Positions 298-47,544 of a stretch of 64,000 nt of DNA are shown here, piece by piece. Numbering within the stretch: the first letter of the stretch is position 1; every line of letters begins with the position of its first letter. The DNA is from Sipunculus nudus (Eukaryota; Annelida; Sipuncula; Golfingiida; Sipunculidae), in the NCBI GenBank assembly GCA_026874595.1, contig CM049322.1, forward strand, positions 30,939,340 to 31,003,339, in the 5' to 3' direction. Made by a program: the position numbers and the translations under genes. Below the pieces are notes generated by a model, which saw nothing but the letters and a program-made list of their open reading frames with translations, searched no databases and was not told the DNA's origin.

Positions 298-588
298 ATC
301 CGCCTGACAGCGTATCTATCACCGGATACACGAACGGCACCACCCTGTACTCTGATGATGACGTAACACTCACCTGTACAGCTGTTGGAGGGAGGCCTCA
401 CGCTGTATCTGTTGGGTGGAACTGTTTAAATAAAGGTAGTGGTAATGGTACAGCGATCCCTGGGGGCAGGCATAACAGCTTCACTACCAAAGTCAAGAAG
501 ACTTGGCATGGACAACTGTGTACCTGTACAGCCTGGCAGAGGAGGAACCAGGGGCCTTTCACAGCAAGTGTCTTCTTCACAGTCTCAT
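298..588 (+). CDS. Exon 1 in window: Ig-like domain
   Basis: 97 codons, phase 1 at both ends, acceptor AAAAG at 293-297 and donor GTGAGT at 589. The pyrimidine tract is poor, but the phase and the domain start (PPDSVSITG) support this boundary. The B-strand reads VTLTCTA, the tryptophan core VSVGWNC, and the F-strand region LCTCTAW. It therefore has four cysteines rather than two, one directly after the core tryptophan, which could form a second disulfide. Two NGT sequons are present. An earlier acceptor within the domain would break the phase rule. Confidence 0.82.
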
Positions 589-15500: not shown

Positions 15501-18500
15501 GATTAAGCTGTTTTACAACACTTATTTTATTTCTGATTTACATGATTGTGGTTAATATTGTCTTCATAATCCAACACTTTTAAAACCGTAAAAATAGATG
15601 TTTTTGTCTTGTGTGCTTCTGTATGCATTTCTGTTAAAAGAGCGAGAATGGGCCCAATACATTTTTCAAGGACACAAGACTTTTGAATGACTTTTGTTAA
15701 TGATTTTATTTGTAAAATCAGTTCATCCAGATTCATTCAAAGTTACTTGTGTACTTTTAATGGTTGTAGACCTTCACTTGAACACCCCGAGTCCCACGCA
15801 GGAGGTGGCAGAGTATGAGTCCGTGAAAGTGACCTGTACAGCAGATGCTGTGCCAGCTGAGAGTGTACAGTTCCTCCCATGGTTACACAGCAACAGAGGA
15901 ATAGTTACACCCCTCCTCAGTAACTTCTCCAACCAAAGTATAGCGGTGCTTGCGTTTACATCAATACAGTACTACAACACCGGGAACTACACCTGTAAAG
16001 CTCATATTGACCAAGATCCTGAGAAAATGGCAGCTCAGCAAGTCAGAGTTAGATGTGAGTACCATTTCAGAATTATTTAGATGATTATCAGTTAACCTAA
16101 TGCTGACGATGACAAATCTGGAACACCCAATCCATCAAAAAAAATTTCATTCCCGAATTTTGCAGGTTTGTAGATATGGGTGATAGGACATATGCTATTT
16201 ACTTTCCTTTTTATCCAGTAGTCTTCTGAGCTTGTACCTTTTGAGAACAGCTAGGCCTTTACTGATGTCTGGATGTGCAGGCAATAGAGTACAATTGTAT
16301 TTCACAATTCATCAACTCATGGTTACCTCACAGGCCGGCACTCATGCATAACCAGAATAAAGCGACACTAATACGGTGACACCTGGCACATTCCTGAACC
16401 CTTCACATTTATGGAAAATTTATAGTTTTTGTTTCCCTAGTACCAAAATCGATGATGGTCTCAGTTGCTTTAAAAAATTAATCGATTATTCATAAGGTAG
16501 AACCTGGCCCCTCACAAAATTTTATTCAAATACATTTATAACTTTTAAGGCATCTAAGACAGGACATATTAAGGTATATCTATGGTTTGTCCATCCTTTT
16601 AACTTTTATCGTTGCAATGATGACTTGCCAGGCCTTTGAAGTATTTTCAGGAAACTACTTAAAATACATTTCTTGCCCGACCAAACATTTGATCATTTTT
16701 CAAAAACCAGCAGGAACCACAGAGGCTCCTCGCGCCACCCATTCCTTCAACACACAGGACTAATAAGATTATCTTATAATTGTATCCTCCAAAACAGAGT
16801 TTTGAGAATACTATGTTTTCAGGCGCCGCCGCCGCAAAGGTTTCCGGAGAACTTCTCCGTAACCACTAAGCAGAATTTTATGAAACTCAGAACTATGATC
16901 AGGTCACATTTGAACTGCTGCGACCTAATTTTGGGTTGACCTCTGACCTTTCTTCTCTGCACAGCGTCCATCTATGTGTCTGTTTTCACACACAAACTCA
17001 CATATCTTGGGACTAGTTTGATCAGTAAGGCTGAAAACTTGCACGAGTGCAGCTCTTTGGTAGCTCTCTGTCATTATGGCGCCACATACAACCACTTTTG
17101 CACAAGGTCCATCTGTTTGTCTGCCTTGGGCTAAAATTACTCGTATCTCGGCAGTGGTCTGACTTATCCGCCTGAAATTTTGTATGTGTGTACATCTCGG
17201 ATAGTGTTCTAGTTTATATGACAGGTGGCGCCTACAACAATCATGTTTATGCTACAGACATCCATGCTTATATCTCAGGACTGGTTTGACGTATTGGCCT
17301 GAAATTTTGCATGTGTAGATCTTACATAGCTCGTTATCATACACAAAACTGGTGGCGCCACCTACAATTGTTTTTGCAAGTTGTCCATCTTTTTGTCTGC
17401 CTTAGGTTAAAATCACTCACATATCAGCAGTGGTTTGACTGATCTGCCTGAAATCTTGCATCTATATACATCTTGGATAGATTTCTCGTTTATTTGACAG
17501 GTGGCTCCACCTATTATCATGTTTAACTGATGATTATTAGAAGAATTCAGGACCGGTTTGACATATCGGCCTGAAAATTTGCGTGCGTTTAGAACTTACA
17601 TAGCTATTATCATACACAAAAATGGTTGCGCCATCTACAACTATTTTTTTAAAGGGGACATCTGATTTTCCTATTGGGGTGAAAAAATCACTCGCATCTC
17701 GGCAGTGGTATTACTGATCCACCTGAAATTTAGCATGTGTATACATCTTAGATGGCTTTCTTGTTTAAATGACAGGCGGTGTCACCTATAATCATGTTAA
17801 CATGGCAGACATCCATGCTCATATGCAACACATCTCACTGTTTACCACTCAATCCATGAATCGTTTCACACCACTCTGATTTCGGCAAATACACGTAGTC
17901 GCTTGTCGACTTTCCGTATTCTAGTTTCAATGTCAAATTCAATTTTTGTTAAGACTTGAACAATTTTGAACTTTTTTTAAACAAAAATTTTTTGGGACGT
18001 GAATCACACTATTCAAATGTAATAAAATATAAGTATCTGATGTGAGTGCTAATTGACATGTTTTAAGACTTAAAGGATATAAATAATTAGTAGCATTTCT
18101 TTCATATCGCATAAAGATAGAAGGGCCCTTATATGAATGACACTTTAGTCAATCAGGAATATTCGGCAAACTTTCGTGGTAGTATATATTTAGCTATTGA
18201 AAACTCAATAACTTTCACGTACATTCACAATGTATCCTTTCATATAACACTTGGTCCTATTTTTTCCTCATTGCATCATTCAGTGGTTTCAGGCGACACA
18301 GTGAAAATGCAATTTATACCTAATTGGCTTGTTTTAACATGTTTGTTAAATTTTGTTTATGCACATTTGAATTTGTTTACAGCATTTTATTTCAGTTAAT
18401 AGATTAATGTTCATTATGATACTTTGTAGTGCTATATCAATATACTGATACATACCGATACGCAACATTGTATCGATGAAACGCAAGATCTGTAAAACCA

Positions 18501-35900: not shown

Positions 35901-38900
35901 ACAGAAGCCGGTGAGTTTTTGGATACTATGTTTTCACGTGGGTTATGATGCAGGACAGATAAGGGCATCAATGTGTTCTATGAAAACGGGAATGTAGGTG
36001 ACATGGCATCACCTGTCTAATCTATGAGAAAACTCTCCAAGATGGATGGACATGCCAAATTTCAGACGAATACATCGAACTGCTGCTGAGATATGAGCAA
36101 TTTTCACCCATCGCAAACACACGGATGGATGCCACATGAAAATGATTGCAAATGGCACCACGAGTCTTGAGTATGAGATAAAGGTATCCGACATCTCTGG
36201 ACATGCATAATGTCAGACCAATATGACAAACCCCTCCTGATAAAGAGAATCAGAGTATTTTAGGAAAACAGGAAGGTAGGTGGTGCCACCTGTTTGGTTT
36301 ACAAGAAAACTCTCCATGATTGATGGTCTTGTCAAATTTCAGACTAATACATTGAACCATTCCTTAGTTTTGAGTTTTTTTCACCCAAAGCAAATGCACA
36401 GATAGATGCCATGTGAAAATGCTACCATTCTAGAGTATGAGATGGAGGTACCCAAGATCTATGGACATCCACGGTTTCTGCCAAATACATTGAAGCAATC
36501 ACTGTGACAAACAGATGACAAATGCATGTATCGATGCGATGTCAAAGTGGTTGTAGGTTGCTACACCAGTCTGGAGTATGAGATCTTTGAACACATTACG
36601 TTTCAGCCCAAAACATTGAACCTCTCCTGATATATTGGCTGGTATGCCCGAGACATTCAGATTTATACTGCATGAACAGGATTGCAGGTGGCGCCACTTG
36701 TCATTGTTTGGCACAAGTTCAGGTATGCCAGGTTCACAGAGATCAGTCCAAGGGTCTAAAAGGAGTTCTCTGGAAATGAATGCAATGGCTGTGACAGCTG
36801 AACCTGAGTAAAAACATAGTTAGGGCAAACATCTGTTTTGGGGATGAAATGAAAGTGTATCACTTCTGTTCTGATTACTGGTCACAGAGGACCAAGACAT
36901 ACACAAGTGTTTATTTGCCTGTGTTCTCTCTTCAGACACTGCCAAGCAGCCTGACCATCCGACCTGGGGGAAGAGAGTGTTCACAGGTTTGGGTCAAGAT
37001 GTCTCGTTATCAATCAAAGTAGATGCCTATCCAACCAGTGTCAATTTTATCTGGTACTATGTACGAGGAGAAAACATCACTAGAGTCCAGGAGGACGAGC
37101 GCACCACAATAACCTCTCACCCTCCACAGAGTACGCTGAACATCACCAATATCACGATGACTGATCTGGGCAACTATACAGTCCATGTAGAGAACGGAGT
37201 CCGGTCTGGCAGCAGTTTTTCATATTTGGTAATACCTAAAGGTATGTAAGCGTGCTCGGTAATTTTCAGTGTTTAACTGGGTTGAAAGAAACTTTGATCA
37301 AATAGGATCTTTTCAAAGTGCAAGTTGCAGCTAAATTTATGCAGTTTTATTGGGAAATACATACATTTTAGATAACATTTTTGAAGAATATTGGAGATGT
37401 TGCTAATTTGCATATTTTTGCTTTTTCTTTTGTTATAAAATTTCTATGTCAGTGAGAGCATTATATATTTGAAGTCATACTTTGAAATTATTCTAACTGA
37501 ACATCCAGGAAGGTCAATAAAATTCTCTTTGGAACCCTGAAATAAGGTCACAGTGACCTATATCCTCCGAGCTATGGGGCATGTTTGTGTCCCTAGAATG
37601 ATTAAAATTTGATACAAAACCTCCAGTATCTTTATAATTAGTCCGTTGATTGCCAAGAATCTTGCCTTGAATATTGACCATGACTAGTTTTGACAGTTCC
37701 CCAAACTAGTACCCTGAGCTCAGGTAATGGTCCTTTATCCGTAGTCTGTCCGCTTGTCCATCCAGCTGGAGGTCTGTTAACAAGGCACGTTTTGAAACCA
37801 TTGGACCTACAATTCAAAATCCAGCATAAAGGTAGATGTCCCTAAGTTCTCCTACCACACCCAAAACTGGGTTACTGACTTCGTTCCTTTAAGTAATTAA
37901 GGAAAACCTCCATTTTCCACGATTCTTTATATGCAAATCGATCATTTAGTGTTCCATCAATTCCTGAAGACATGTGAAGCACCTGCATTTTTTTCTAATT
38001 TAAGCATTGTTTTCTCTATTTTTAGACTTTCAAATGAAGCAGCCTGTCTGTTAGCAGGGCACAAATCCTAACTGCTGGAAACTTCTAACTAATTACCCAG
38101 GGAGGTCAATAAATATCTCCAGTCACAGCTGATTAACTCCCTTCTTAGGCTCGGGTTGAGTACAAAGTCAAGGACAAAAGGTCAAGGGTCAAGGTCAGAG
38201 GACCCAAATTTTGAAAAAGTTAATAAAAAATATCATTGTAGACAAATTCAGCTCAGGGTTAAGACCCATGGGTTCCTGAGTTGTAAGTGAACCAATTGGA
38301 TAAACAAGTGGGAGAAAGTGAGAAGAATGTGGGCTTAGGGAAAGACACAGGGAGTAGTTTTACATGATTACAGCCCTGCCTGGGTAAACTTTTTATAATG
38401 CACTAACACTGGTTGAGCACCCCTGCAGTCACAGGTGTCCAGTAATTTTCATATCCCCCCTCTTTCTTTACCCCCCCCCCCCCGCCACCCCACACACAGC
38501 AATAATTACTTAGTGTAATGCAATAATTGTTTTGGCTTGAACTGTATTTTCTTAACTATACAGCTGTTTCCAGTCCAATGTACAAATATTTACTTGATAT
38601 AATAATTTCAAGGAGTAATCCAGAGTTACGTATCATGTTTAAAGAATTTATTTCCTTTTAAATAATTTTAATGAATTATTATAAAATTAAACCCATCATT
38701 GTGCTTAATGTGATAATATATGAGGCAAATTATAGATAAATAATGGTGCAATTTAGAATTGTGAATTCTGTATCAGGTTTAATTTCAGATATTTTTAATT
38801 TTGCAAATTACTAAAATTTATATTTTTGTGATTAAAAAATAAAACATCTATATGCATAATGCAATGCTGTATTAGCAACATAAGGGATAAATGATGATGC

Positions 38901-41900
38901 AATTTAATATTGTGAAACAAATAATTTATTCAGATAAAATGTTATATTACAAATTTATACAAATTTAAAAACTTGATAAATTAAAAAAAAGGATCTAATG
39001 CAAAGATTTGTTCATTTTTTTCTGCCTCACAGAATGGGAAATAAAGTGGTTTGTTTGTCCATCTGTCTGTTTAGTATTAAATGTTTATTAAGCATGAATC
39101 ACCTGTTACCACATTTCAGTATGTTAAATTTACATTAGAATATTCTCATAATCATCATCAGCTGAGTGCCATGACCCACAGGTTCCTTGTTTTACAACTG
39201 CCAGAAATATGATATAGAAATATGACCAGGTAAAAGCTTCCTATTTCATGAACAGATGGCCCAGGGCCCCCAGAAATAGATGTCACCAGGAGTTTTTCAA
39301 CCGCTGTCTCGGTGGAAATATGGTGGCGATCAAGTTTTGACGGAGACTACCCACAAACCTTCAGTGTCCACTACAGACACGTTGGACAGAGTTTTATGTT
39401 GTTCAGATCAGGAATCAAAGATCAGGGTCTTGGTGTCAGTCACCATATCAGAGTTACACCACTAACACCTGGAACAGCATACGAGTTCAAGGTGGAAGCT
39501 CAAAATGCTCATAATGGAGGATCCACAGCTACATCCAACATTGTACAGATCACCACATTAGGTAAGGTGGTCATATTATGTATAGCCATAAATGTCATTT
39601 TTGTCATCTTGTTCACAACTGTATAAAATGATATAACAGACTATAACCAGTTTTATTTGTTTAAAGGTTTGGATCATGGTGTGAGAAGATGAAATGTATG
39701 ATCTGTGTTGGTCAGTTCAGTTTCTGTCACAGTTGGTAACAACATATGTGATTTTATTTCTGTTGCATGATGCATTTGTTTATGATTTGCGTGTTTATTT
39801 ATTTGCATGTTATTAACAATAATTATAAAAAAAAAACATTTTGTGGGTGGTTTTTATCCATCTTTTTATGTCTTTGTTCCATCAATAAGGTCGAAGTCCT
39901 TATACAATTGATTAAAACAAAATAATTAATTCCCCATTTCCTCTAAAGAGAGATTATAGCTACATTTTGAACAACCTGTAAGCACAACAGCAAATCTTAG
40001 GTAGCACTTTATCTGGAAACTGGAAACCAAAAATTGTGAGACAAATCTATTAAAAAATAAGGAATAGGTTAGAATTTTCTTCTCTTTTATACTTGACCTT
40101 ACAAATTCAGTCATCTAAAAAACTCTATCAGATTGAACTTATTAGGTCGCCGGAATGATGTTCCAGAGAGCTTATACCGTTACCCCAGCGTTGGCGTTAG
40201 CACCGGCTAAATAAGTAGACACCTAAGGTTTAAGTTTTTGGTTAATTCTTTATGATTCATCAAACTTAACCGATTGCTTTCATATTTACATTTATATTGT
40301 ATAAGTAGTTAGGATTCCCCCTTTGATTTTTCGGATTAAAAGGTCAAAATTCATGGTCACAGGTCCTTGTTATCTCAGCTGACTGTAAGTCAACTGAAGT
40401 ATAGGAACGGCGATTTGTCTGTCGTCCGTTTGGCCGTCGGGCCGTCCGGTCGTCCGTTAGCAGGGCACAAATCGTAACTGCTGGTCCTAGAAACTTCTTA
40501 GAGAAATCCTAGGAGGTCAATAAATTATCTCCTTGGAAACCTGCAATTGGGTCAATGCAACCTATATCCTCTGAGCTATGGGGCTTGTAAGTACCCCGAA
40601 AAATAATTTAAAAAAATTGATACAAACCCTCCAATATCTTTATAATTATTGCATGAATTGTCATGAATCTTGCCTTGAATATTGACCATGATTAGTTTTC
40701 CCTGCTCCCGAAAAGTGGTGGTGCAACCTATATTTTTTTCATATTTCTATGAATATTTTTCTATTTTTTACTATAAAATGACAACACTCATGTCAGTTTC
40801 TCAGCTGTGATACTATCTAGTGTCCCAAAGCCTGGTGTGTTTATTGATCACAAGATGATGCCCTATAGTACTCACCCGGTCTCTTCCTCTAGCTGTCTGG
40901 CTTTCCATCCGTCCATCCAAACAAATTTGTTTCCAGATGATAACATCAGCTTGGATTGACATATGGATTTCAAACATGACTTAAACATGGCCCACCACTA
41001 AAGAAAGAACCTGTTTGATTTTTGGGTGAAGAGGTCATAGGTCAAAGTCACAGGACTGACTTATTTTAAAAGATCAAGGCTGCATTTTAAGCCAAGCTTT
41101 TCATCCAAAACTTTCGATATCTCAAATTTATCTGACTTGCCAGTTTGGGGAGAACAAAAATGAATTTGGGGTCACAAGGTCAAAGTCACAGGGGTCAAAT
41201 TAGTTTCCAGATGATAACTCCAGTTTAATTTGACATATTGGTTTCAAATTTGATTTATATATAGCTCACCACTTAAGTAAAAACCTGTTTGATATAGGGT
41301 CCAAAGGTCAAAGGTCAAGGTCACAGGACATATTTCTTTCAAGAAATGTGTATGCATTTCAAGCCAAACTTTTCATCACAAACCTTCGATCTTTAAGATA
41401 TTACTCATCTGCCAATAGGGGAACATTCTTTTTGATTTGGGGTCATATGGTCAAAGGTCAAGGTCACAGGGCCCATTTATTTTACAAATTAGTTTATCGA
41501 TGATAATTCTGCTTTGGCTAGACAGATTGGCTTCAAACTTGATTTATGAATGACCCACCACTTAAGTAAGAAAAAATTTGATATTCAGGGTCCAGAGGTC
41601 AAATGTGAAGGTCACAAGAGCCACATCTTTAAAACGATCGTGGATGCACTGTTAATCAAACTTTTCATCCCAAACTTTCCTTCTTTCATTATTGGCTTAC
41701 TTGCCCAAAGTGGAAGAAATCTGTAGATTTTGAGGTAACCTGGTCAGAAGTCAAGATCATTGGACCCACTTTCTTTTAAAAGATCATACCATAAACTCAA
41801 TCCTGCAAGTTCAAGAATAATAAGTTCTTAGATATTTTGGTCACAAGGTCATTGGTTAAGGTCACAGGACCGTCATTCTGAAAATGTCTTTCAAAATATC

Positions 41901-44900
41901 CTTATAGATGAAAACAGCTGAGTGCGAGACCCCTGTGTCCCTAGTTTTTCATGAACATGTCCGGTTAAAGTGTGTTTTTTCTTGTTTGGCTCATTACTTA
42001 ATTGCTAATGAAGATATTTTAATTAAATTTACTGGACTGTTGAACAGTTACAACCAGCACAGCTATGAAAACTTATTTTCAGTTTTTTTTCAACATGTTT
42101 TAATTTCAGGGGCAGTAATTAGCATTTAACGAAAACAATTTGCACAAATCTCTACCCAGCTCAGTTTAAAGTTTTAAATTAATTCTTTATAACTCAGCAA
42201 CCACTTTCCATATTACTTTCATATTTCATTTTTCATTGTACAGGGGTTCGGCCCCCCCCCGTGATAGAGGATCCGAAGGTGAAGGTCCCTGTTGTTCACG
42301 TTAAAGTTTTTAGATCAGCTTCTGTTGATTAGGGTTAAAGCTCAGGGCTCAAACCAGGAGGTCGTGAGTTCAAATCAAGACGGTGAGATATTGACAGTCT
42401 GCCCCGCCACAGGGTGAAGGCTCTGCAGGCTTAATGGGAAGGCTGTGCCCCACAGGCGGTTTCACTCACAAACGAGCTTGTCTTTGGGGGTTCCTCGGTG
42501 TTATTATCCAGCAGTGATGATGGTTACATACACAGGACCCACAGGTGCGGTAGACACCAGGCCTGGGTGACACCAGGATAAAAAAATAATATGATAGTAA
42601 GCGACAGCTTCCACCCTGTCATTAGTCCCAAACCAAAAAAGAACTCTGCAAGTATACTTACTTAGATAAAGAATTAGATAAGAGAGCATAACAAATGGAG
42701 GCGGTTATCTCCACAAAAAAAAGACTTTGCTTTCTTTTCCCTAAAGAAAGACCAACAATGAAGAATTCAACAACAAGTGTACAGCGTCATGGCAGCAGGG
42801 CCTATCTGACCTGGGACAGACCAGGTGGGGTGTATGACACACAGGGTATTGAGCAGCATGATACTACAGGTCAGAGACAGGAGAGAAGTACAGGGGTCTG
42901 TACACCACCGACATGTCAGGTGTCAAAGAATCTGACAGTGGATACCTCAAGCTACAACGTGACTGGTCTGGTCCAAGGTCGTACTTATCGGTTTGTTCTG
43001 GTGCTGTTCTATAAAGGAGACGAGGTGAAGCGACAGGGGTTTACACAACCTGTGGAAAAAAGTGAGCATTTATCTCTTCAGGAACTTCTTTGTCTTATAT
43101 CTGGCTGAGAAGGTCTAAATAACTATATCTCTCAGTACAGAAGCACAATGTTATATAATCGTATATGAATACATGTACATGTAAAACAGATATTCCTTTC
43201 TGTCATAAAAAGGTGTGAAAAAACATAATAACTAATCCACTTTGAATTAGTTGATTATCATTAAAATTTATTTGTCTTTTTCTTAATTTGTCATCCTCGA
43301 AAAAATATTAAATAGTGTTTGATAAGGTGTTCCACAGTGAAGTAGCCTTAGACGAAATTGATTCGATTCCAAATAATACAACATTTATGCATTATTTGAA
43401 AATTATTATTTAAAAGGATAACAGTTAACAATAAAATGATCCCACGGCTTAATATTCCGTGGACCTATGTGATGTTTTATGGGTTTTCCCTTCTTCAATT
43501 TTTAATATTTTTGTTAAATTTGAAATTTGGTGTTTGTTGAATATTCATCATCTGAACCTGCTAACCCTTGAATATATTAAAACTTGATAAAGAACCTGCA
43601 GGAAACACTGATTAACTGATCTCACCCTTAACTGTTTAGATCCAAATTCAGCTGGTGGGCTAAATGCCGGAGCTGTGGCTGGTGGTATCATTGGATCTCT
43701 GCTGGCCATCATTACTATTTCTGCTCTTGTTTGGATTTTCTGTCGCAGAAACACACAGGAGCATAAAGGTATGTGTTAACTTTTTTATAAATTGCTGACT
43801 GACGTAGAACATTTTTCGTAATTCTACTTTTCATTAAAATCTAAAAAATATATATATGAAATTTATCGTACTTTTCAATTAAAATTGCGGAACATAAAGG
43901 TATACATTTTCATGCTTAATGCATGTGTCCATGGATGTGTAACATATTTAATATTCATAATAATATGCTAATATTATGATGTTATATAATGATGACTAAT
44001 GAGAAGATGCTAATATGGCATGTTTATGACCTATTCTGTCAGAAAATTATTCTTTTGTTTATAAGTAGATTTGTTTTTGATAATAAATCATTTTCAAAGA
44101 AACTGGACAATGCCATCAATCCAAAAGAGAAAAGGATAGAGAAGACAGTCTTCCAGGTATCGCTATTTAATTACCAGATACTTTATAATATCTGAGGCAT
44201 TTTTATTGTATGTAAGTCAATTTTAACTTGTTTTAGAACCCAATTTATTTGAACAGCCTCTCTCAGTTTTATTTCAACCTTGTGTATCATACTCTTGTCA
44301 TGTGGCAAAAATATTGGGTTCAAACTTCATTTGTTAATCATACTCAACGTTGTCTTAAATATACCTACTTCTTGTCCCTTAGTCTAAGGTATAGATTACT
44401 TATATTTATGTTTAAATCTGATTACCTATATTCAATATTTGTTTTAATGTGTATTTTATGGCAACCGCAAGATTAAAACTTTCTTCTAGAGCAAACCTAT
44501 GAATTTCTGAATAAACCCGTGGAGTATGAAAACCTGAAGATGAACAGATGTGAAGGTACGGTATGGAGTTTATTGTTAATACGGATGTGTTGGTTTACCT
44601 TCTGTGGTTTTGGTACTTATTTTATTATACATTAAAACATTAGCCACCCTGATTAACTATGAAACCTCTGCAGTTACTTACAAAATAGATCTGTTACTGA
44701 AAAATTGAAATGTTATATTTTTATCGAAATATTGAATGTCATTAACGGAATGGGCATTTAATTAAAAATTACGCAAGGTATGTGGCTTACAACAAAATGA
44801 TTGAAATTTGGGGGGGGGGGGGGTGTTACATATAACGCCTAGATATTGTTTGATTTTACCATTGTTACTGAACACTACAAATTATTGAAAGTACCTACAA

Positions 44901-45210
44901 CTCTTTGTTATGACATTTACTAAATGTAAGATTTGCATTAAACATTATATCTTTTTCTTAGAAAAAACTTACCAGGATCTTCAGAAGATAACAGACTATG
45001 AGAATGTTACAAGAAATGATAAGATTAAAGGTACGTAAATCTCAATAGTTTCTTCTTGTGCATTTTTAGTGATTCTGATGTACATAACTTTCTTAATATT
45101 ACATGCTTTTTGATTCCTGATACATTTCTTTGGTTCACTATCTTTGAAATACCAAAAGTTGCTTTTCCAAATGAGTAGATGAAACATACCTCTGGGTCTA
45201 CATGAAAATT

Positions 45211-45289
<79 letters not shown>

Positions 45290-47544
45290 CCTTTCAGGTT
45301 GCGAGATCATTTATTTTTATACGGCACCACATATGCATTTGATTGCTCATGCGTATCTGCTAAGCTTACAAACATATACTGAAGGTGAATAGCCAGGGGA
45401 AGCTGATTGGATGTCAATGTATCACGCTTGATGTGCCGAGTCGTCGTCGGGGTTCATCGTGTGATAATCAGTCTTTATGCTCGTGCCATGCTATATATAT
45501 ATATAAGACATGGGGTAAGCGTAATTAGTAATCGTAATCGATTTTATTTATTTTTAAAGCAAAGTAATTGTAATTGTAATCAATTACTCTTCCAATGTAA
45601 TCGTAATCTTGATTACATTTGTATTTTCTGATTTTAAACAGCTACAGTTAATGTTTCCTAATAAACTGATCTTTCATGCTTACCATTGATTAAAAACATT
45701 AAGAGTATTCACTTGTTGTTGGATTGTGTTGATAGCTGGATTGTGTGTGTAAGCATTCTGAGATTAAATAAGAGAGGAAAAAATAAAATCATTGTTTTAA
45801 ATTTAATATATGCAATGTTTAGTATGGTCTTCATATTTAAATTTAAGACCATGGTGAAGTGCTCACTATAACAGCTCTTAGCTGTACGTAGCTTAGCTTA
45901 GCTCAGGACTCAATTTCTGTTATGTTTGCCCAGAGCCACTAGCTGCACTAGCTTGAGGACAGTATTTGCTTAATTCTCTCTACATCTTGTGTTTCACAAA
46001 CACACGGTCAGTTAAATCCTATTTAGTAATGTTCAGCTAATTAGCTGAAAAGGATAAGGGTATGGTACTCTGTACAGATGGAGTCCAGCATCGGTCCAGG
46101 AAGTGTACACAGAGAAAGATATCAAAAGAGAAAGGCTTCTATGCAGCATACTGTTTGCCAAAGCAGTGCTCTTAACCAATTATTGGTCTTTGGCATCATG
46201 CAGTGGCTATTATTAGGTCAAATGTAATTATGCTGGTGCTCTACTCTGGGCCATGTTATGTAAAATGTGAGACTGGCCACAAGTTTAGACTAAGGGTGCT
46301 GAACAGTATAAAAATACAACTCTATGGACAGGTACATTTGTACAACATCTTGTCCAGTGGTAACTGCAAATAGGATTCTGTCTAAAAATCAGAGAATTTA
46401 GATTTCACCTATTAAGTACTTTTATTTACAGTAAGCTCTCTCCTTAAAATGGAAAAATTAAAGCGATTGAGCAGACCTGGGCATTATATTTTGGTAAATG
46501 TAACAATTTCCCCTTAATGTTACAACAACCATACTTTTGGCCCACAGAAACCGCATTAAAAATAATATATTTTTTTTACCCAGCCTGCCCTGCAAAATCT
46601 TAAAAAGTCAACCTTTAAGGGCCTGGAGGGCGGGATATGGTTTCAGGCCCACTCAGAGCTCTAGAGCTTTAAAACACTCAGCTAAGCAACCCCCTCTTTG
46701 TATATTTGAGCAAATCAACAAGAAAGTGCATTTGAAGTGATGTAAATAATTCCTTCGGACAATTTCATCTGTTTCATAACTTGATAAGACTTACTACTCT
46801 GTCAATGCTTTGCACAAGTTTTCTTTCTTTTGATGCATTTGAATAAAGGTATAGTATGCAATTGTTGTGTTGGAATTAGGCAAAATTAAGGTTTGTAATC
46901 TTGGCTGTAATTATGATTACTTTTGAAGTAATCATAATATAATCGTAAGAGCAATCGATTACATGAAATTATCTTGGTAATCGTAATCGTAATCATTTAC
47001 TTTTAAAGTAATCGTAATCGTAATCGATTACATATATCAAGTATTCACCCCATATATATATATATGTGTGTGTGTATGTGTGTGTGTACGTTTAAACTCC
47101 TGTATCCCTCCAACTTCTATTTAACTAACCACACAATTGTTTTAATACCCTCAGTCCATTTTTTAAGTATGTGGTAAAGTGTTATATTAAATATTTAATA
47201 TTAACATTGTTTTTTCCTTTAACAGAGCAGACGTATGAAGAATTGTCGAGATCACCAAATCCAGCAACAGATTCCCCAGGAAACATCGGTAAGGTCATCA
47301 TTTATCCATTATTTAACAGCGTGTACAAAAAAATGTAAGGCTCCTGTGAGTTTGTATATCGGCTCTGGCATAAAGCCTTTCATATGAAAAAAAAATTGTT
47401 TTGCGAAATTAATATAAATGTATATCAATATTTGATACTTTCATATGATAATCTGTTGTAAACCAATGTCAGCTTTTACGGATGTAATATATCCTTCCAG
47501 ATGAACCAGTGACCACCTACGAGAAACTTCAGTACAAGAAGTGA
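298..47544 (+). CDS. Ig/FN3 transmembrane receptor with ITIM/ITSM-type tail (3' part, 12 exons, spliced)
   Basis: This is the 3' part of a type I membrane receptor gene of the immunoglobulin superfamily. The signal peptide and any earlier domains lie upstream of the window. Joining the twelve exons listed separately gives about 819 residues: Ig x5, FN3-like x2, one transmembrane helix, then a tail of about 80 residues ending in TGA at 47542-47544. Boundaries rest on AG acceptors, GT donors, domain ends and one rule without exception: every junction is phase 1. Introns run from 212 bp to 20.9 kb and are full of mobile elements. The tail has seven tyrosines, six in YxxL/V motifs, so SH2-domain phosphatases or adaptors are the likely partners (family knowledge). 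ITIM-bearing IgSF receptors have been reported in oysters as far as I recall; orthology is untested. No symbol is assigned. Adhesion molecules of the nephrin/CD22 type have a similar layout and are the main alternative. Confidence 0.85.
589..3527. other. Intron 1, first part: no recognisable feature
   Basis: Only short unrelated frames occur, including both strands of 1066-1342. None has an Ig-like pattern with splice sites. A poly-G run lies at 3417-3429. Confidence 0.5.
3528..3745. repeat. GC-rich dispersed repeat with three consecutive hairpins
   Basis: A sharp GC-rich island in AT-rich intron. Positions 3536-3552, 3556-3573 and 3574-3595 each form a stem-loop (arms GCGGAT/ATCCGC, GCGGGC/GCCCGC, AACCCGC/GCGGGTT). 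Its far end (ACGGGCCGAG then TTTAG) recurs at 5-40, so this is a dispersed family. hAT-type non-autonomous elements are one possibility; I see no terminal repeats that prove it. Confidence 0.55.
3746..4699. other. Intron 1, middle: nothing recognised
   Basis: AT-rich, no supported exon, RNA gene or clear repeat boundaries. Confidence 0.5.
4700..5240 (+). repeat. Mobile-element remnant with about three ~150-bp tandem units
   Basis: Units carry the phrases TGACCTCTRACC, TTAAGTATGC and GTAAGTTRTCGCGGCGACA and repeat three times with divergence. The end has the run GCAGACGGACGGACGG and then ATACGTCC...GACGGG, a small hairpin. This resembles the tails of satellite-core elements common in mollusc genomes (inference). 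Confidence 0.5.
5578..6332 (+). mobile_element. Solo LTR of an LTR retrotransposon (755 bp)
   Basis: The element starts TGTTACAGGTGTC and ends CCGTAACA, giving the TG...CA ends with a short inverted TGTTAC/GTAACA. It is flanked by CTTG at 5574-5577 and CTTG at 6333-6336, a possible 4-bp target duplication. A second copy at 63279 has the same start and the same blocks in the same order (TTAGGGGCWGTGTTTAGAGCC; CAGTTTGTGGACCT; AAGAATRAATTA; ACTACGTGATCTGTTGTTAT). An AATAAA on the + strand near 6199 suggests + orientation. No internal region follows, so it is solo. Superfamily is unknown. Confidence 0.78.
6407..6694 (+). CDS. Exon 2 in window: Ig-like domain
   Basis: 96 codons, phase 1-1, acceptor TTGGCAG at 6400-6406 and donor GTAAGT at 6695. 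It starts PPTGPSLVF. The B-strand is YRTTCQLS, the core tryptophan is in YSWFKDN, and the F-strand is KEIRCEVQN. This is a C2/I-type Ig domain of the usual length. It follows a 5.8-kb intron that carries a solo LTR ending about 75 bp before the exon. Confidence 0.85.
6695..7680. other. Intron 2, start: nothing recognised
   Basis: AT-rich intron with short shadow frames only. Confidence 0.5.
7682..8211 (+). repeat. AT-rich dispersed repeat, copy 1
   Basis: From TCCAGTCCAATGTACA through ATTAAACCCATCAGTA and TTTAGAATTGTGAAT-like blocks to CCTGCCTTAGCAGG. The same blocks in the same order occur at 10142-10860 and 38570-39060. Those two copies lie inside Helentron-like elements, so this one is probably the internal part of a truncated element. 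Confidence 0.6.
8212..9115 (+). repeat. Tandem-unit element starting TAGCGAACCTGTGAGCTTA
   Basis: Four diverged units carry AGGAGCTAGCATCAC followed by AAATTT (near 8296, 8592, 8739, 9044), spaced about 147 bp or twice that. The head GCGAACCTGTGAGCTTATGC followed by CGTCCGTCGTCTG is a type seen widely in mollusc repeats (recollection). The 3' boundary is not clear. Confidence 0.5.
9480..11874 (+). mobile_element. Helentron-like element with fossil endonuclease segment
   Basis: The head (TAGCTTAGATGACT then TAGTCGTGGTCC) is a decayed version of the hairpin head at 27881 and 48417. Next comes CTTTTGAAACCGTTGGAC, shared with 34141 and 37791. The middle is AT-rich repeat plus a poly-C run at 10719-10745. 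Two successive tails, AGCTGAGCACAGTGACCC at 11694 and AGCTGAGCACCGTGACCC at 11845-11862, each carry the palindrome GACCCATGGGTC; the second ends CTTG at 11871-11874 before a T run. A coding fossil lies just before the tails. Boundaries are inferred by comparison and insertions may be nested. Confidence 0.55.
11434..11640 (+). pseudogene. Fossil exonuclease-endonuclease-phosphatase (EN) fragment
   Basis: The frame opened at 11425 reads [16 protein letters not shown], then NSTDHLFTN and [14 protein letters not shown]. The order PT...(I/T)DH(I/L)(F/Y)TN...SDHK is the C-terminal half of the EEP endonuclease found in non-LTR retrotransposons and, as a fused domain, in Helentron RepHel proteins (family knowledge). 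SDH is the catalytic motif. No upstream EN, helicase or RT can be read; a stop lies at 11401. Its place directly before the GACCCATGGGTC tail favours the Helentron origin. Confidence 0.6.
11875..12155 (-). mobile_element. tRNA-derived SINE, copy 1 (short form)
   Basis: Read on the minus strand it starts with a tRNA-like part whose B box is GTGTTGAAATC. The conserved body follows (CTTAATGGGAAGGC, CTCACAAACGAG) and the end is CACCAGGATAC with an A7 tail. It lacks the last ~130 bp present in the three other copies. It sits directly after the CTTG end of the Helentron-like element. Confidence 0.72.
12156..12990. other. Intron 2: nothing recognised
   Basis: AT-rich with a C run and CA tract near 12721-12748. 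No exon or element boundaries seen. Confidence 0.5.
13000..14713 (-). mobile_element. Family A Helitron-like element with ~280-bp tandem core (minus strand)
   Basis: The head, read on the minus strand from 14713, is a hairpin (14684-14713: arms GTATCCG/CGGATAC and CAAAAC/GTTTTG). It is followed by ACTATGTTTTCAG and a (GCC)n run at 14645-14667. The core is a tandem array with GGTGGCGCCACC-type sites near 13291, 13421, 13571, 13700, 13848, 13978, 14128, 14260 and 14409, a composite unit of about 277-282 bp. The 13.70-14.41 kb units are nearly identical, so amplification looks recent. The distal end is not identified. Confidence 0.65.
14714..15013. other. End of intron 2
   Basis: AT-rich, ending in the pyrimidine tract of exon 3. 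Nothing else recognised. Confidence 0.5.
15014..15310 (+). CDS. Exon 3 in window: Ig-like domain
   Basis: 99 codons, phase 1-1, strong acceptor TTATTTACAG ending at 15013 and donor GTAAGA at 15311. It starts [12 protein letters not shown]. The B-strand is [11 protein letters not shown], the core tryptophan is in YKWIHQ, and the F-strand is the textbook AGTYTCEV. One N-linked sequon (NLT) is present. The next exon is only 459 bp away, the closest pair of Ig exons here. Confidence 0.9.
15311..15769. other. Intron 3
   Basis: A short AT-rich intron with no repeat recognised. Confidence 0.6.
15770..16054 (+). CDS. Exon 4 in window: Ig-like domain
   Basis: 95 codons, phase 1-1, acceptor GGTTGTAG ending at 15769 and donor GTGAGT at 16055. 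The B-strand is [11 protein letters not shown], the core tryptophan is in LPWLHSN, and the F-strand is TGNYTCKAH. Sequons NFS/NQS and NYT are visible. It is followed by a 20.9-kb intron, the largest in the window, in which I found no further Ig exon. Confidence 0.9.
16055..16781. other. Intron 4, start
   Basis: No recognisable feature before the family A element. Confidence 0.5.
16782..17924 (+). mobile_element. Family A Helitron-like element, complete (1143 bp)
   Basis: The start hairpin is at 16782-16811 (GTATCCT/AGAATAC outer arm, CAAAAC/GTTTTG inner arm). Then come ACTATGTTTTCAGGCGCC and GCC triplets, diverged ~280-bp core units with GGTGGCGCCACC near 17225 and 17350, and the 3' end. The 3' end is a hairpin at 17897-17911 (AGTCG/CGACT), exactly 9 nt, then CTAG at 17921-17924. 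Flanking bases are T on both sides and there is no target duplication. This is the rolling-circle end signature. No transposase or Rep coding is present. Confidence 0.7.
17925..18780. other. Intron 4: nothing recognised
   Basis: AT-rich, with no exon and no clear repeat ends. Confidence 0.5.
18815..19370 (+). repeat. Tandem-unit repeat remnant
   Basis: It opens with CCGCGTCCGTGTCCACGTCC and AGGCTTTTATCTCAGAA. A second partial unit ends AGGCTTTTATATCAGGA near 19254, and TGACCTTGATCTTAACGTTC recurs as TGACCTTGATTTTGATCTTC. This resembles the other satellite-core elements, but the ends are unclear. Confidence 0.4.
19683..19728. repeat. TA microsatellite
   Basis: TA/CA dinucleotide run immediately before the SINE-like repeat. 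Confidence 0.9.
19731..20112 (+). mobile_element. Two head-to-tail copies of a second tRNA-derived SINE-like repeat
   Basis: Both copies start GATGACATAAAAGCGGACCG (19732 and 20005). The first contains GGTTGGTACGCCGGACTTG and GGGTTCGAATCGGGG, which fit A-box and B-box promoter elements of a tRNA-like head. The second lacks the B-box part. A TA-rich tail follows. The tRNA-like part is too imperfect to call a tRNA gene. Confidence 0.55.
20114..20306. repeat. Compound TA/TG microsatellite
   Basis: About 190 bp of TA with TG and CA interruptions; the target of the TA-flanked transposon that follows. Confidence 0.9.
20308..21600. mobile_element. Non-autonomous pogo/Tigger-like DNA transposon (1293 bp)
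   Basis: Terminal inverted repeats CAGTGAAACCTGTCTAAAGC (left) and CAGTGAAAACTGATCTAACG (right, reverse strand) are flanked by TA at 20306-20307 and 21601-21602. The CAGTGAAA start, GGACA-rich subterminal repeats and TA duplication suit the pogo/Tigger branch of Tc1/mariner (family knowledge). No transposase frame is visible, so it is non-autonomous or decayed. It sits in a TA microsatellite. Confidence 0.72.
21616..23394. mobile_element. Fold-back element with long arrays as inverted ends (~1.78 kb)
   Basis: Both ends carry TGGCTGATTTAGGACACAG (right one reversed), then a TCTCGAGATCTCGAGA-type segment. Then comes an array of TTTTAGGAAGC-A(n) units on the left (21690-21890) and its reverse complement on the right (23120-23300). 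The middle (21890-23110) has no transposase. A 10-bp direct repeat ATATTTACGG at 21611-21620 and 23396-23405 may be the target duplication, which would suit a MULE or fold-back type. Confidence 0.65.
23442..23714. repeat. 21-bp palindromic minisatellite, about 13 units
   Basis: Units are CGTGCGCACGA plus CTTATTATTT with few changes. Each includes the palindrome TCGTGCGCACGA. Because 21 is a multiple of three and no unit contains a stop in three frames, it gives three long overlapping frames that are not genes. It abuts the right end of the fold-back element. Confidence 0.92.
23845..23926. repeat. TA microsatellite
   Basis: About 80 bp of almost pure TA. Confidence 0.95.
24160..26480 (+). mobile_element. 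Family A-like element with ~325-bp tandem core, ends decayed
   Basis: Five core units carry CTGGTGGCGCCACCTGTTAT followed by CCTTTTCTTG, with GGTGG at 24433, 24757, 25083, 25419 and (diverged) 25743, a period of 324-336 bp. From 25780 shorter diverged units follow. The segment TAGTCGCTTGCCAAGTGT followed by CTGCTGAAGATGGGGG near 26403-26445 matches the 3' part of the 51502-53754 element. Neither a start hairpin nor a final CTAG was found. Poly-G runs are near 26441-26491. Confidence 0.6.
26492..27880. other. Intron 4: nothing recognised
   Basis: AT-rich, with short frames only and no repeat ends that I can place. Confidence 0.5.
27881..31788 (+). mobile_element. Family B Helentron-like element with ~340-bp tandem core, interrupted
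   Basis: The start hairpin at 27881-27911 has arms TAGCTCAG/CTGAGCTA and TGACT/AGTCA around a GAA loop. A GTCCGTCTGTCC run follows. The core units have GGTGG at 28226, 28564, 28905, 29223, 29562, about 29901 and 30243, spaced 318-342 bp. A family A element (30264-31604) is inserted in the seventh unit; core sequence resumes at 31605 (ACATTTTTTTCTCTATTTTT). The tail is AGCTGAGCATCATGACCC with palindrome TGACCCATGGGTCA at 31771-31784, then CCTG and T. Confidence 0.65.
30264..31604 (+). mobile_element. Family A Helitron-like element, complete (1341 bp), nested in family B
   Basis: The start hairpin is at 30264-30293 (inner arm CAAAAC/GTTTTG, loop AAA), then ACTATGTTTTTGACC and GCC-rich sequence. 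Core units with GGTGGCGCCACC lie near 30464, 30616 and 30743. The 3' hairpin 31577-31591 (AGTC/GGCT with a wobble), 9 nt and CTAG at 31601-31604 close the element. Both flanks are T within a T-rich stretch of the host repeat, so host and insert can be told apart and no target duplication is needed. Confidence 0.7.
31789..32690 (+). repeat. Short tandem units with GGCAGACTGCC
   Basis: Four units around 32210, 32280, 32390 and 32455 share TATAGCTTTGGCAGACTGCC. The stretch before 32160 has no recognised feature. Confidence 0.5.
32691..33010 (+). repeat. Diverged ~130-bp units related to the family A core
   Basis: Repeats of GAAATTGGGCATAT, then TATACATMT, then CGTATACAAGAC with sites such as GGTGTCGCCACC. 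These match the 25.8-26.3 kb and 36 kb units. Confidence 0.5.
33180..33934 (+). mobile_element. Helentron-like element fragment with AGGTCA-rich core
   Basis: A 5'-truncated copy of the 40371-41944 element; the opening TTTTTCTATTTTTTACTGTT matches 40744. The core repeats TCAAAGGTCAAGGTCAC. The tail GACCCCTGGGTC then CTAG at 33931-33934 before a T run is readable. Confidence 0.6.
34061..35497 (+). mobile_element. Family B Helentron-like element(s), composite
   Basis: A decayed head GCTCAGCTGACTATAGTCG at 34061 is followed at 34225 by the right half of another start hairpin (AAGTCATCTGAGCTATAGCG). Core units match those of 28-30 kb (GTTAACAGGGCACAAATC; GCAGACTGATGGTACCACC). The tail palindrome TGACCCATGGGTCA at 35480-35493 ends CTTG at 35494-35497 before T8. 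Confidence 0.6.
35498..35911 (-). mobile_element. tRNA-derived SINE, copy 2 (long form)
   Basis: On the minus strand: tRNA-like head (TGTGGCTCAGGCGTTGAGCA), body with CTGGGTGACACC, then a 3' part ending in GGAGGCAGTTACCTCC, a small hairpin, and an A8 tail. It directly follows the CTTG end of the Helentron-like element. Confidence 0.75.
35912..36780 (-). repeat. Family A-related core units on the minus strand, with half a head hairpin
   Basis: 35919-35933 (TTTTGGATACTATGTTTT region) matches the right half of the family A start. The units GTAGGTGGTGCCACCTGT and GATGGATGGACATGCC are reverse complements of those at 25.8-26.3 kb. A GGTGGCGCCACTT site lies near 36688. Confidence 0.5.
36936..37241 (+). 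CDS. Exon 5 in window: Ig-like domain without the canonical cysteines
   Basis: 102 codons, phase 1-1, acceptor TCTCTTCAG ending at 36935 and donor GTATGT at 37242. The Ig pattern is clear from the core tryptophan (NFIWYYV), the late strand [12 protein letters not shown] and the closing strand FSYLVIP. Yet the B-strand reads VSLSIKV and the F-strand YTVHVEN, so both disulfide cysteines are replaced by hydrophobic residues. Several N-glycosylation sequons occur (NIT, NIT, NYT). This is the last, membrane-proximal Ig domain before the FN3 pair. Confidence 0.87.
37480..38290 (+). mobile_element. Diverged Helentron-like fragments in intron 5
   Basis: At 37719 GAGCTCAGGTAATGGTCC resembles a decayed head. 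TTGAAACCATTGGACCTAC at 37793 is shared with 9551 and 34147. A tail-like GACCCATGGGTTC then CTGAG lies near 38265. Confidence 0.5.
38400..39189 (+). mobile_element. Helentron-like 3' part with AT-rich repeat (copy 3), ends before exon 6
   Basis: 38570-39060 repeats the AT-rich blocks of 7682-8211 and 10142-10860. The tail AGCTGAGTGCCATGACCCAC then AGGTTC and CTTG ends at 39189, 66 bp before exon 6. A poly-C run lies at 38471-38483. Confidence 0.6.
39256..39561 (+). CDS. Exon 6 in window: fibronectin type III domain
   Basis: 102 codons, phase 1-1, acceptor ATGAACAG ending at 39255 and donor GTAAGG at 39562. It starts [12 protein letters not shown], a typical FN3 entry. The core tryptophan is in VEIWWRSS, and the highly characteristic [17 protein letters not shown] gives the E-F loop and F-strand tyrosine. 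The close is NIVQITT. A Helentron-like element ends 66 bp before the acceptor. Confidence 0.88.
39562..40370. other. Intron 6, start: nothing recognised
   Basis: AT-rich, with no exon or element ends. Confidence 0.5.
40371..41944 (+). mobile_element. Helentron-like element with AGGTCA-rich core (1574 bp)
   Basis: The head TATCTCAGCTGACTGTAAGT then CAACTGAAGTATA is a mutated hairpin of the 27881 type. Then come CTGTCGTCCGTTTGGCCGTC and GGGCACAAATCGTAAC. The core has TCAAAGGTCAAGGTCACAGG at about 41309 and 41450 and variants. The tail AGCTGAGTGCGAGACCCC then CTAG at 41941-41944 is followed by TTTTT. Confidence 0.62.
41945..42315. other. Intron 6: nothing recognised
   Basis: AT-rich, with a short poly-C near 42252. 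Confidence 0.5.
42316..42727 (+). mobile_element. tRNA-derived SINE, copy 3 (long form, sense), abutting exon 7
   Basis: B box GTGAGTTCAAATC at 42363-42375. The body includes CTTAATGGGAAGGCTGTGCC and TAGACACCAGGCCTGGGTGA. The 3' hairpin GGAGGCGGTTATCTCC is at 42696-42711, then an A8 tail. About 20 pyrimidine-rich bases separate it from the exon 7 acceptor. Confidence 0.75.
42747..43061 (+). CDS. Exon 7 in window: second FN3-like domain
   Basis: 105 codons, phase 1-1, acceptor CTTTTCCCTAAAG ending at 42746 and donor GTGAGC at 43062. The core tryptophan sits in [10 protein letters not shown]. The strand pair [19 protein letters not shown] matches the FN3 tyrosine corner in place of LTPGTxY. 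Two cysteines six residues apart (CTPPTC) probably form a small extra disulfide. The sequence is more divergent than exon 6. A SINE ends about 25 bp upstream, so the branch point may lie in the SINE. Confidence 0.82.
43062..43639. other. Intron 7
   Basis: AT-rich, no feature recognised. Confidence 0.6.
43640..43768 (+). CDS. Exon 8 in window: transmembrane segment
   Basis: 43 codons, phase 1-1, acceptor ACTGTTTAG ending at 43639 and donor GTATGT at 43769. A short extracellular stalk (DPNSAGGLN) leads into a helix of about 24 residues from [10 protein letters not shown] to ALVWIFC, then CRRNTQEHK as the positively charged stop-transfer signal. The helix contains glycine/small-residue spacings (GAVAG, GGIIG) that favour helix packing. 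It has no charged residue, so there is no sign of pairing with an ITAM adaptor. Confidence 0.9.
43769..44489. other. Intron 8
   Basis: AT-rich, no feature recognised. Confidence 0.6.
44490..44555 (+). CDS. Exon 9 in window: cytoplasmic exon, YEFL plus ITIM VEYENL
   Basis: 22 codons, phase 1-1, acceptor TTCTTCTAG ending at 44489 and donor GTACGG at 44556. With the split glutamate codon it reads [16 protein letters not shown] and then KMNRCE. VEYENL fits the ITIM consensus [ILVS]xYxx[ILV]; TYEFL is YxxL but lacks the -2 residue. YEN also fits the GRB2 SH2 preference pYxN. The two motifs are five residues apart, shorter than a classical ITAM spacer. Confidence 0.87.
44556..44961. other. Intron 9
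   Basis: AT-rich, with a poly-G run near 44810-44823 and nothing else. Confidence 0.6.
44962..45030 (+). CDS. Exon 10 in window: cytoplasmic exon, YQDL plus ITSM-type TDYENV
   Basis: 23 codons, phase 1-1, acceptor TTTTTCTTAG ending at 44961 and donor GTACGT at 45031. It reads [16 protein letters not shown] and then TRNDKIK. TDYENV fits the switch-motif pattern TxYxx[VI], and YEN again fits pYxN. Layout and wording (E-x-T-Y-x-x-L, five residues, Y-E-N-L/V) match exon 9, so the two exons look like a duplication. Confidence 0.87.
45213..45286. repeat. TA microsatellite in intron 10
   Basis: About 74 bp of pure TA. Confidence 0.97.
45511..47052. mobile_element. Possible hAT-like element with TAATCG-rich ends (~1.54 kb)
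   Basis: Both ends read TGGGGT inward and then carry many TAATCG / GTAATCGTAATCG motifs in opposite orientation (45515-45615 and 46905-47035). Short ends with clustered subterminal motifs suit hAT elements (family knowledge). It splits a TA microsatellite and no 8-bp target duplication is evident, so the exact ends are uncertain. No transposase. Confidence 0.5.
47226..47288 (+). CDS. Exon 11 in window: cytoplasmic exon, YEEL
   Basis: 21 codons, phase 1-1, acceptor TTCCTTTAACAG ending at 47225 and donor GTAAGG at 47289. It opens [10 protein letters not shown], matching the start of exons 9 and 10, and continues [11 protein letters not shown] with no second tyrosine. It may be a third copy of the same module with the second half lost. 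The preceding intron holds a long TA microsatellite and a possible hAT-like element. Confidence 0.85.
47501..47544 (+). CDS. Exon 12 in window: terminal coding exon, TTYEKL and stop
   Basis: Acceptor TATCCTTCCAG ends at 47500. The exon reads [14 protein letters not shown] and then TGA at 47542-47544. TTYEKL is YxxL with threonine at -2, close to the ITSM pattern. A seventh tyrosine (QYKK) is not in a YxxL motif. Short terminal exons of this sort are typical of tyrosine-motif receptors. Confidence 0.87.

Follow-up and report, generated by a model that had tools for sequence, protein, structure and literature searches.

Introduction

Receptors of the kind treated here are already known from several described systems. 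The oyster Crassostrea gigas has CgIgIT2, with five Ig domains and a transmembrane segment; the cited portion of a review assigns it an ITAM, and the title quoted there calls it an immune inhibitory receptor (PMC11999971). In Botryllus, the cited sections describe the FcoR family as clustered Ig receptors whose tails may bear ITIM or hemITAM sequences as well as the core Y-x-x-I/L/V motif; in two loci, alternative splicing exchanges motifs (PMC12065747). The Dscam tail of Daphnia may contain or omit an ITIM or an ITAM by exon choice, according to the cited extract (PMC6851185), and in Drosophila the ITIM isoform Draper-II is reported in the extract used here to be bound by the phosphatase Corkscrew (PMC9008705). 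Taken as the cited portions present them, CgIgIT2, FcoR, Dscam, and Draper-II establish this kind of receptor. A further point of reference is the T-cell adaptor LAT, for which the cited text gives three C-terminal pYxN sites for Grb2-family adaptors, pYxN being the motif of Grb2-family SH2 domains (PMC6669380).

Here we analyze a receptor gene of the sipunculan Sipunculus nudus. The stretch of DNA that was studied, called the window below, comprises 64,000 nucleotides of contig CM049322.1 (C17:30939340-31003339), and searches covered the 1.43-Gb assembly. We propose that the receptor tail is a string of putative phosphotyrosine docking cassettes that was enlarged by exon duplication.

Results and Discussion

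Gene Model and Tail Exons

The model contains five Ig exons, two FN3 exons, one transmembrane (TM) exon, and five tail exons (Table 1), and a single reading frame runs from the Ig exons to the stop at 47544. The 5' end of the gene lies beyond the window, so the Ig count is at least five. An earlier note on this DNA had called the product an Ig-superfamily receptor, and with at least five Ig domains, two FN3 domains, and one membrane span the model agrees. The NCAM/Fasciclin II plan consists of five Ig domains, two FN3 domains, and a TM segment; of the receptor gene, whose 5' end lies outside, the window shows five Ig and two FN3 exons. Sequence matches of the receptor in the PDB include titin and contactin-3 (the two best), CEACAM1, NCAM1 (weaker than these two), and nectin-1. 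A genome search with the TM exon gave five other close copies and three distant matches (E < 0.001). The model supports placing the exons at 44490-47544 in the predicted intracellular tail of a type I receptor with Ig and FN3 domains.

Table 1. Exons of the receptor gene, with positions counted from the first letter of the window
Feature	Position	Strand	Evidence and remarks
Ig domain exon 1	298..588	+	Pfam Ig_2 E 1.7e-4, under curated cut-off; phase 1-1, weak acceptor
Ig domain exon 2	6407..6694	+	Pfam Ig_3 E 1.1e-4, under curated cut-off; splice model
Ig domain exon 3	15014..15310	+	Pfam Ig_3 E 5.7e-8; splice model
Ig domain exon 4	15770..16054	+	Pfam Ig_3 E 3.5e-7; splice model
Ig domain exon 5 (Ig5), without cysteine	36936..37241	+	Pfam Ig_3 E 5e-9; splice model; present in paralogues B-E
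FN3 exon a (FN3a)	39256..39561	+	Pfam fn3 E 7.1e-9; at least 33 genome matches
FN3 exon b (FN3b)	42747..43061	+	Pfam fn3 E 5.8e-4, under curated cut-off; at least 31 genome matches
Transmembrane exon (TM)	43640..43768	+	Hydrophobic run, then CRRNTQEHK; Pfam ErbB1 TM match just below cut-off
Tail exon T0, without tyrosine	44100..44156	+	Splice model; open, AG/GT borders in paralogues B-F
Tail cassette T1, 22 residues: YEFL and VEYENL (ITIM consensus, YxN), tyrosines nine apart	44490..44555	+	AG/GT, phase 1; paralogues
Tail cassette T2, 23 residues: YQDL and TDYENV (ITSM consensus, YxN), tyrosines nine apart	44962..45030	+	AG/GT, phase 1; paralogues
Tail cassette T3, 21 residues: QTYEEL	47226..47288	+	AG/GT, phase 1; duplicated in paralogues C and F
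Terminal cassette T4, 14 residues: TTYEKL and stop codon	47501..47544	+	AG acceptor, phase 1; paralogues

The last Ig domain lacks cysteine, and hence a canonical disulphide, in the window copy and in paralogues B-E. Related open frames starting with FYDRW and sharing a 10-residue stretch lie on both strands of the window (13228-14281 and 30882-31106); these are a putative dispersed repeat. The window gave neither Rfam families at gathering scores nor tRNAs.

The four tail exons that the earlier note placed at 44490-47544 are found there, with AG/GT borders and open phase-1 frames; T0, between the TM exon and T1, was absent from its list. Six of the seven tail tyrosines read Yxx[LVI], in keeping with the six YxxL/V tyrosines reported for T1-T4, and VEYENL and TDYENV, the proposed ITIM and ITSM consensus sequences, are literally present. 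The exon ends are in phase 1, as had been stated, but this is uninformative: all of the internal exons (12/12) are 1-1, and we therefore reject phase symmetry as an argument that exon skipping tunes the tail. A modular multi-tyrosine tail is supported, and the number and type of its motifs differ between paralogues; splicing may tune it as well.

By approximate splice-site matrices, the acceptor of T0 scores poorly and that of T1 middling; both exons recur with AG/GT borders in paralogues B-E. Shuffling the 107-residue tail, with its seven tyrosines, produced six or more Yxx[LVI] motifs once in 200,000 shuffles. Measured against the six-frame background of the window, in which 31% of tyrosines have L, V, or I at +3, six of seven corresponds to P = 0.005. 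Both strands of the 64 kb were scanned for open segments of 36-100 nt that are bordered by AG and GT, 1-1 in phase, and contain Yxx[LVI], using splice thresholds chosen after the T1 scores were known. Nine were found, T1-T3 among them; the paired form YxxL-x5-YxxV/L appeared only in T1 and T2. The strongest proof that the tail exons are real is their retention in paralogues. The tail has no known family in NCBIfam (where the models cover bacteria and archaea), only three weak Pfam matches, all in the TM region, and a single meaningless match in the PDB (E 0.16).

Paralogues on Contig C17

The genome searches score the best candidates only, so all match counts are lower bounds. A DNA query spanning TM to T2 matched at least six sites, each on C17: the window copy (A) and five further TM-tail blocks (B-F), whose identities to A are 97, 94, 93, 85, and 72%. 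FN3b gave at least 31 matches, all on this contig, with 28 inside 3.0 Mb (29.46-32.45 Mb) and three at 15.0-15.2 Mb; FN3a gave at least 33, some of them fragments. A T2 peptide query of the whole genome with E up to 10 listed nine matches, all at known members of the C17 cluster. The tail exons of B-E, and of F, have AG/GT borders and open frames, the exception being GC donors at TM and T1 of F. These results support membership of the predicted receptor in a tandem family with recent copies.

Tails were inspected for 19 of these 31 FN3b-bearing genes. Homologous cassettes were present in 13: A-F, H (L044/L063), I (L045), J (L046/L065), K (L049/L064), L054, L055, and L056, among them distant members with FN3b identities of 55-78%. 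The clustered paralogues differ in their tyrosine motifs. Cassettes were not found in the other six, G and L057-L061. For G (FN3b at C17:30067914), neither TM nor tail was seen within 5 kb, and for L057-L061 no T1/T2-type exon was seen within 4 kb; the cassettes of the latter could sit further along, or their tails may be of another type. Candidate exons with other tyrosine motifs are present in four of these five, L058-L061 (C17:29453713, 15161242, 30694808, and 31794933), which carry ENYEYAAVDL (L058), LNYATVEL, HEYEDL, and QQYEVI. The cluster may accordingly hold several tail classes.

Two further observations concern the cluster and its surroundings. A single one of 306 Ig5 bases distinguishes A from D, against ~41 of 306 in FN3a, and the corresponding numbers for A and B are 8 and 9; tandem copies seem to exchange exons via gene conversion or unequal crossing-over. 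Other dense runs of Ig-domain matches lie at C16:26.41-26.71 Mb and C5:62.24-62.28 Mb and are perhaps further Ig receptor clusters of this genome.

Cassette Number

A full T0-T4 set is present in A, B, D, and E. In C, T3 is doubled as part of a tandem repeat (804 bp, 99.9% identity), and this doubling could still be an assembly error. F has a separate T3 duplication (238 bp, 83%) and a T1 with a single motif. Given these features of its GC donors at TM and T1, together with a frameshift in Ig5, F is probably a pseudogene. J has all four cassettes, and for I the DNA examined covered T1 and T2 only. T4 was not found in K, nor in the stretch of L056 that was examined. L054 and L056 are without the T1-type pair and have other tyrosine exons; the altered set of L054 includes RAKNDQGMPVYQNV, ASSYEMLG, and TTNYQEL...YENT exons. 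In one L054 exon (2572-2637, TTNYQELDRKKDSKEYENTIS), the tyrosines stand twelve apart, an ITAM-like gap, but the final +3 residue is T.

T1 and T2 resemble each other more closely than did any of 20,000 shuffles, and we therefore regard them as products of exon duplication. Their paired tyrosines are nine residues apart in every copy, 10/10 for T1 and 13/13 for T2 (23/23).

Signaling Motifs and Alternative Readings

On balance, we think it somewhat more likely than not that the tail is a multivalent SH2-docking scaffold in which YxxL would serve partners of the SHP, Src, or Syk type and YEN those of the Grb2 type. A ligand would cluster the receptor, upon which a Src-type kinase would phosphorylate the tail tyrosines. 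In each pair, the leading YxxL would then be bound by SH2 domains of the SHP, Src, or Syk type, and the second site, for the most part YEN, by Grb2-type SH2 adaptors. The gain of the multivalent scaffold would scale with cassette number. As to the sign of the signal, we lean toward a mixed receptor able to draw in a Grb2-type adaptor as well as an SHP-type phosphatase. The docking reading shares ground with the ITIM/ITSM and ITAM-like readings below, and the likelihoods that we attach to them are therefore not shares of one whole.

It is plausible that SH2 partners for such a tail exist in the genome, which contains 49 SH2 matches. On the minus strand of C15, two SH2 matches are followed by two phosphatase matches, the order of an SHP protein as judged from match positions alone; one of the SH2 matches at this locus contains two TAA.

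The paralogues allow the competing motif labels to be compared, with tallies over the T1 and T2 copies counted by hand. As the ITIM criterion, we used (I/V/L/S)xYxx(I/V/L) in a cytoplasmic tail, which VEYENL of the window fits; the ITSM consensus is TxYxx(V/I), which TDYENV fits. The window also has two sites of the Grb2-type YxN form, a sequence motif whose phosphorylation we infer. Among T1 copies with two tyrosines, YEN is present in 10/10 and the ITIM consensus in 6/10 (L055 fails at +3, where it has M); when each distinct branch is counted only once (A, H, J, K, and L055), the ITIM scores 2/5 vs 5/5 for YEN. The residue at -2 of the second T1 tyrosine is V in A, C, D, and E, M in B, S in H, I, and L055, G in J, and A in K. 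With an identity of 0.10, this column is among the least conserved, and M is already found in B, 97% identical to the window copy. The second T2 tyrosine conforms to the ITSM consensus in 8/13 copies (failing in F, K, L054, L055, and L056). T stands at -2 in 10/13, and YxN is found in the same 10/13, being missing from L054, L055, and L056; the identity of each column is 0.48. T1 thus favors YxN over the ITIM, and T2 favors neither YxN nor the ITSM. Because the -2 threonine and +2 asparagine of T2 are equally conserved, the contrast between YxN and ITIM is a property of T1 alone, and because T2 does not prefer YxN over the ITSM, the docking reading and the leukocyte-cluster interpretation below are slightly less favored and the ITIM/ITSM reading slightly more.

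These counts bear directly on the suggestion, made in the earlier note, of an inhibitory or switchable immune receptor, in which VEYENL would be a true ITIM recruiting an SHP-type phosphatase and TDYENV a true ITSM recruiting a SAP-like adaptor. Both consensus motifs are indeed in the window, and the SHP-like order of matches on C15 is consistent with this reading. Oyster CgIgIT2 is, moreover, titled an immune inhibitory receptor in the cited portion of the review (PMC11999971). The inhibitory interpretation based on the ITIM label is weakened, however, by drift of the -2 residue at T1 (V, M, S, G, A) next to an unchanging YEN. The ITSM label is on firmer ground, owing to the T at -2 in T2, though the full consensus is found in fewer copies (8/13 vs 10/13). 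The receptor resembles known immune receptors and may have an immune role. Overall, we hold this reading to be unlikely, though deserving of serious consideration.

A somewhat less likely account is an ITAM-like activating receptor, whose paired YxxL/V sites would bind a Syk- or Shark-type kinase through its tandem SH2 domains. The fixed spacing of the pairs in T1 and T2 speaks for it, and the T1-T2 splice junction of A-E reads YENL-x9-YQDL, a loose ITAM by an x6-12 rule. That junction form is missing from H, J, and L055, however, and the gap inside the cassettes is x5, one below the x6-8 of the strict consensus, YxxL/I-x6-8-YxxL/I. Since none of the eight assembled tails matches the strict rule, ITAM identity in that sense is rejected.

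The YxxL/V motif is short and fits AP-2 endocytic signals as well, which counts against the docking reading. In an adhesion receptor with a sorting tail, the cassettes would be endocytic signals whose number sets surface turnover, not signaling. All six motifs (6/6) match YxxPhi, and the domain plan resembles that of NCAM-type adhesion proteins, with the PDB matches listed above pointing the same way. Sorting signals alone, however, do not account for the fixed nine-residue spacing or for the YEN core of T1, and we consider this explanation quite improbable.

Selection on the Cassettes

Introns of A and E differ at 149 of 997 sites and their TM-T2 exons at 20 of 321. For gap-free cassette cores, dN/dS is 0.17 (A-E), 0.20 (A-H), 0.25 (A-K), and 0.14 (A-L055, with silent sites near saturation); the 28 pairs yielded 17 finite values, from 0.14 to 0.44, the other 11 being saturated or uninformative. 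On T0-T3, comparison of A with B-E gave 0.37-0.54 from few changes. Tyrosine codons alternate between TAT and TAC, and the codons for the +3 leucine of the first site vary silently, with the residues unchanged; Y4, L7, and Y13 are invariant across 11 aligned T1/T2 rows. Compared with random columns, the four motif columns gave P 0.013 (T1) and 0.006 (T2), and the two tyrosine columns alone, on a smaller row set, 0.053 (T1) and 0.035 (T2), which we regard as modest support. Conservation among A-D is weak evidence because their introns differ by just 0.3-5.6% and the copies look mosaic. Judged by these ratios, the tail exons are under purifying selection.

The very improbable alternative that the exons resemble one another solely through recent duplication or gene conversion, and have no function, draws on the recency and mosaicism of A-D but is largely refuted by cassettes that persist in members with 55-61% FN3b identity, by the finite dN/dS values, and by the silent changes in tyrosine codons.

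Diversifying selection on the membrane-proximal ectodomain was also considered and rejected; in Ig5 and the FN3 exons, every comparison whose ratio reached 1 (A-B for FN3b, C-D for FN3a and for FN3b) involved no more than five changes. The TM exon values of 5.6 (A-E) and 4.1 (C-E) rest on about one silent change or fewer.

Comparison with Known Receptors

A broader and tentative interpretation, which we would ourselves call doubtful, is that the cluster is a counterpart of a leukocyte receptor cluster: the receptors would come from gene duplication, and the signal gain would be set by duplication of exons. Its unit, YxxL-x5-YEN(V/L/M), would be neither an ITAM nor an ITIM and would combine, in one exon, a site for a kinase or phosphatase with a Grb2-type (LAT-like) site. 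If true, tyrosine signaling modules would be gained and lost exon by exon inside one receptor cluster, and the evolution of activating vs inhibitory tails could be traced among paralogues that coexist in one genome. Consensus-based ITIM/ITSM labels also have a concrete, testable alternative in the fixed spacing and in the YEN core that T1 retains.

In the literature searched, with queries broader than this combination and sources seen as excerpts, we found no precedent for a duplicated bi-tyrosine cassette of fixed spacing in a receptor cluster. Oyster CgIgIT and CgIgIT2 resemble the window receptor, by description, as Ig-superfamily receptors with tyrosine-motif tails, but the cited portion of the review describes them without an FN3 domain or a cassette array (PMC11999971). 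Botryllus FcoR likewise forms a clustered Ig family with differing tail tyrosine motifs, an organizational analogy rather than a homology; the FcoR ectodomain consists of Ig, sushi, and two Ig domains, its host is a tunicate, and the cited sections describe neither a paired nine-residue cassette nor exon duplication (PMC12065747). Arthropod Dscam (Daphnia, Penaeus) shares the placement of tyrosine motifs on tail exons, which in Dscam can be included or skipped. Unlike the receptor described here, Dscam has a larger ectodomain of ten Ig and six FN3 domains, the Penaeus protein has an ITAM-like exon without an ITIM, and the cited extract describes no duplicated tyrosine cassettes (PMC6851185). 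Draper-II differs in that Draper relies on an isoform switch, whereas the window receptor has a cassette array. The Draper ectodomain, in addition, is not of the Ig type. With LAT, which is without a large ectodomain and for which no homology is claimed, the receptor shares a mechanistic likeness in the YEN sequences of T1 and T2.
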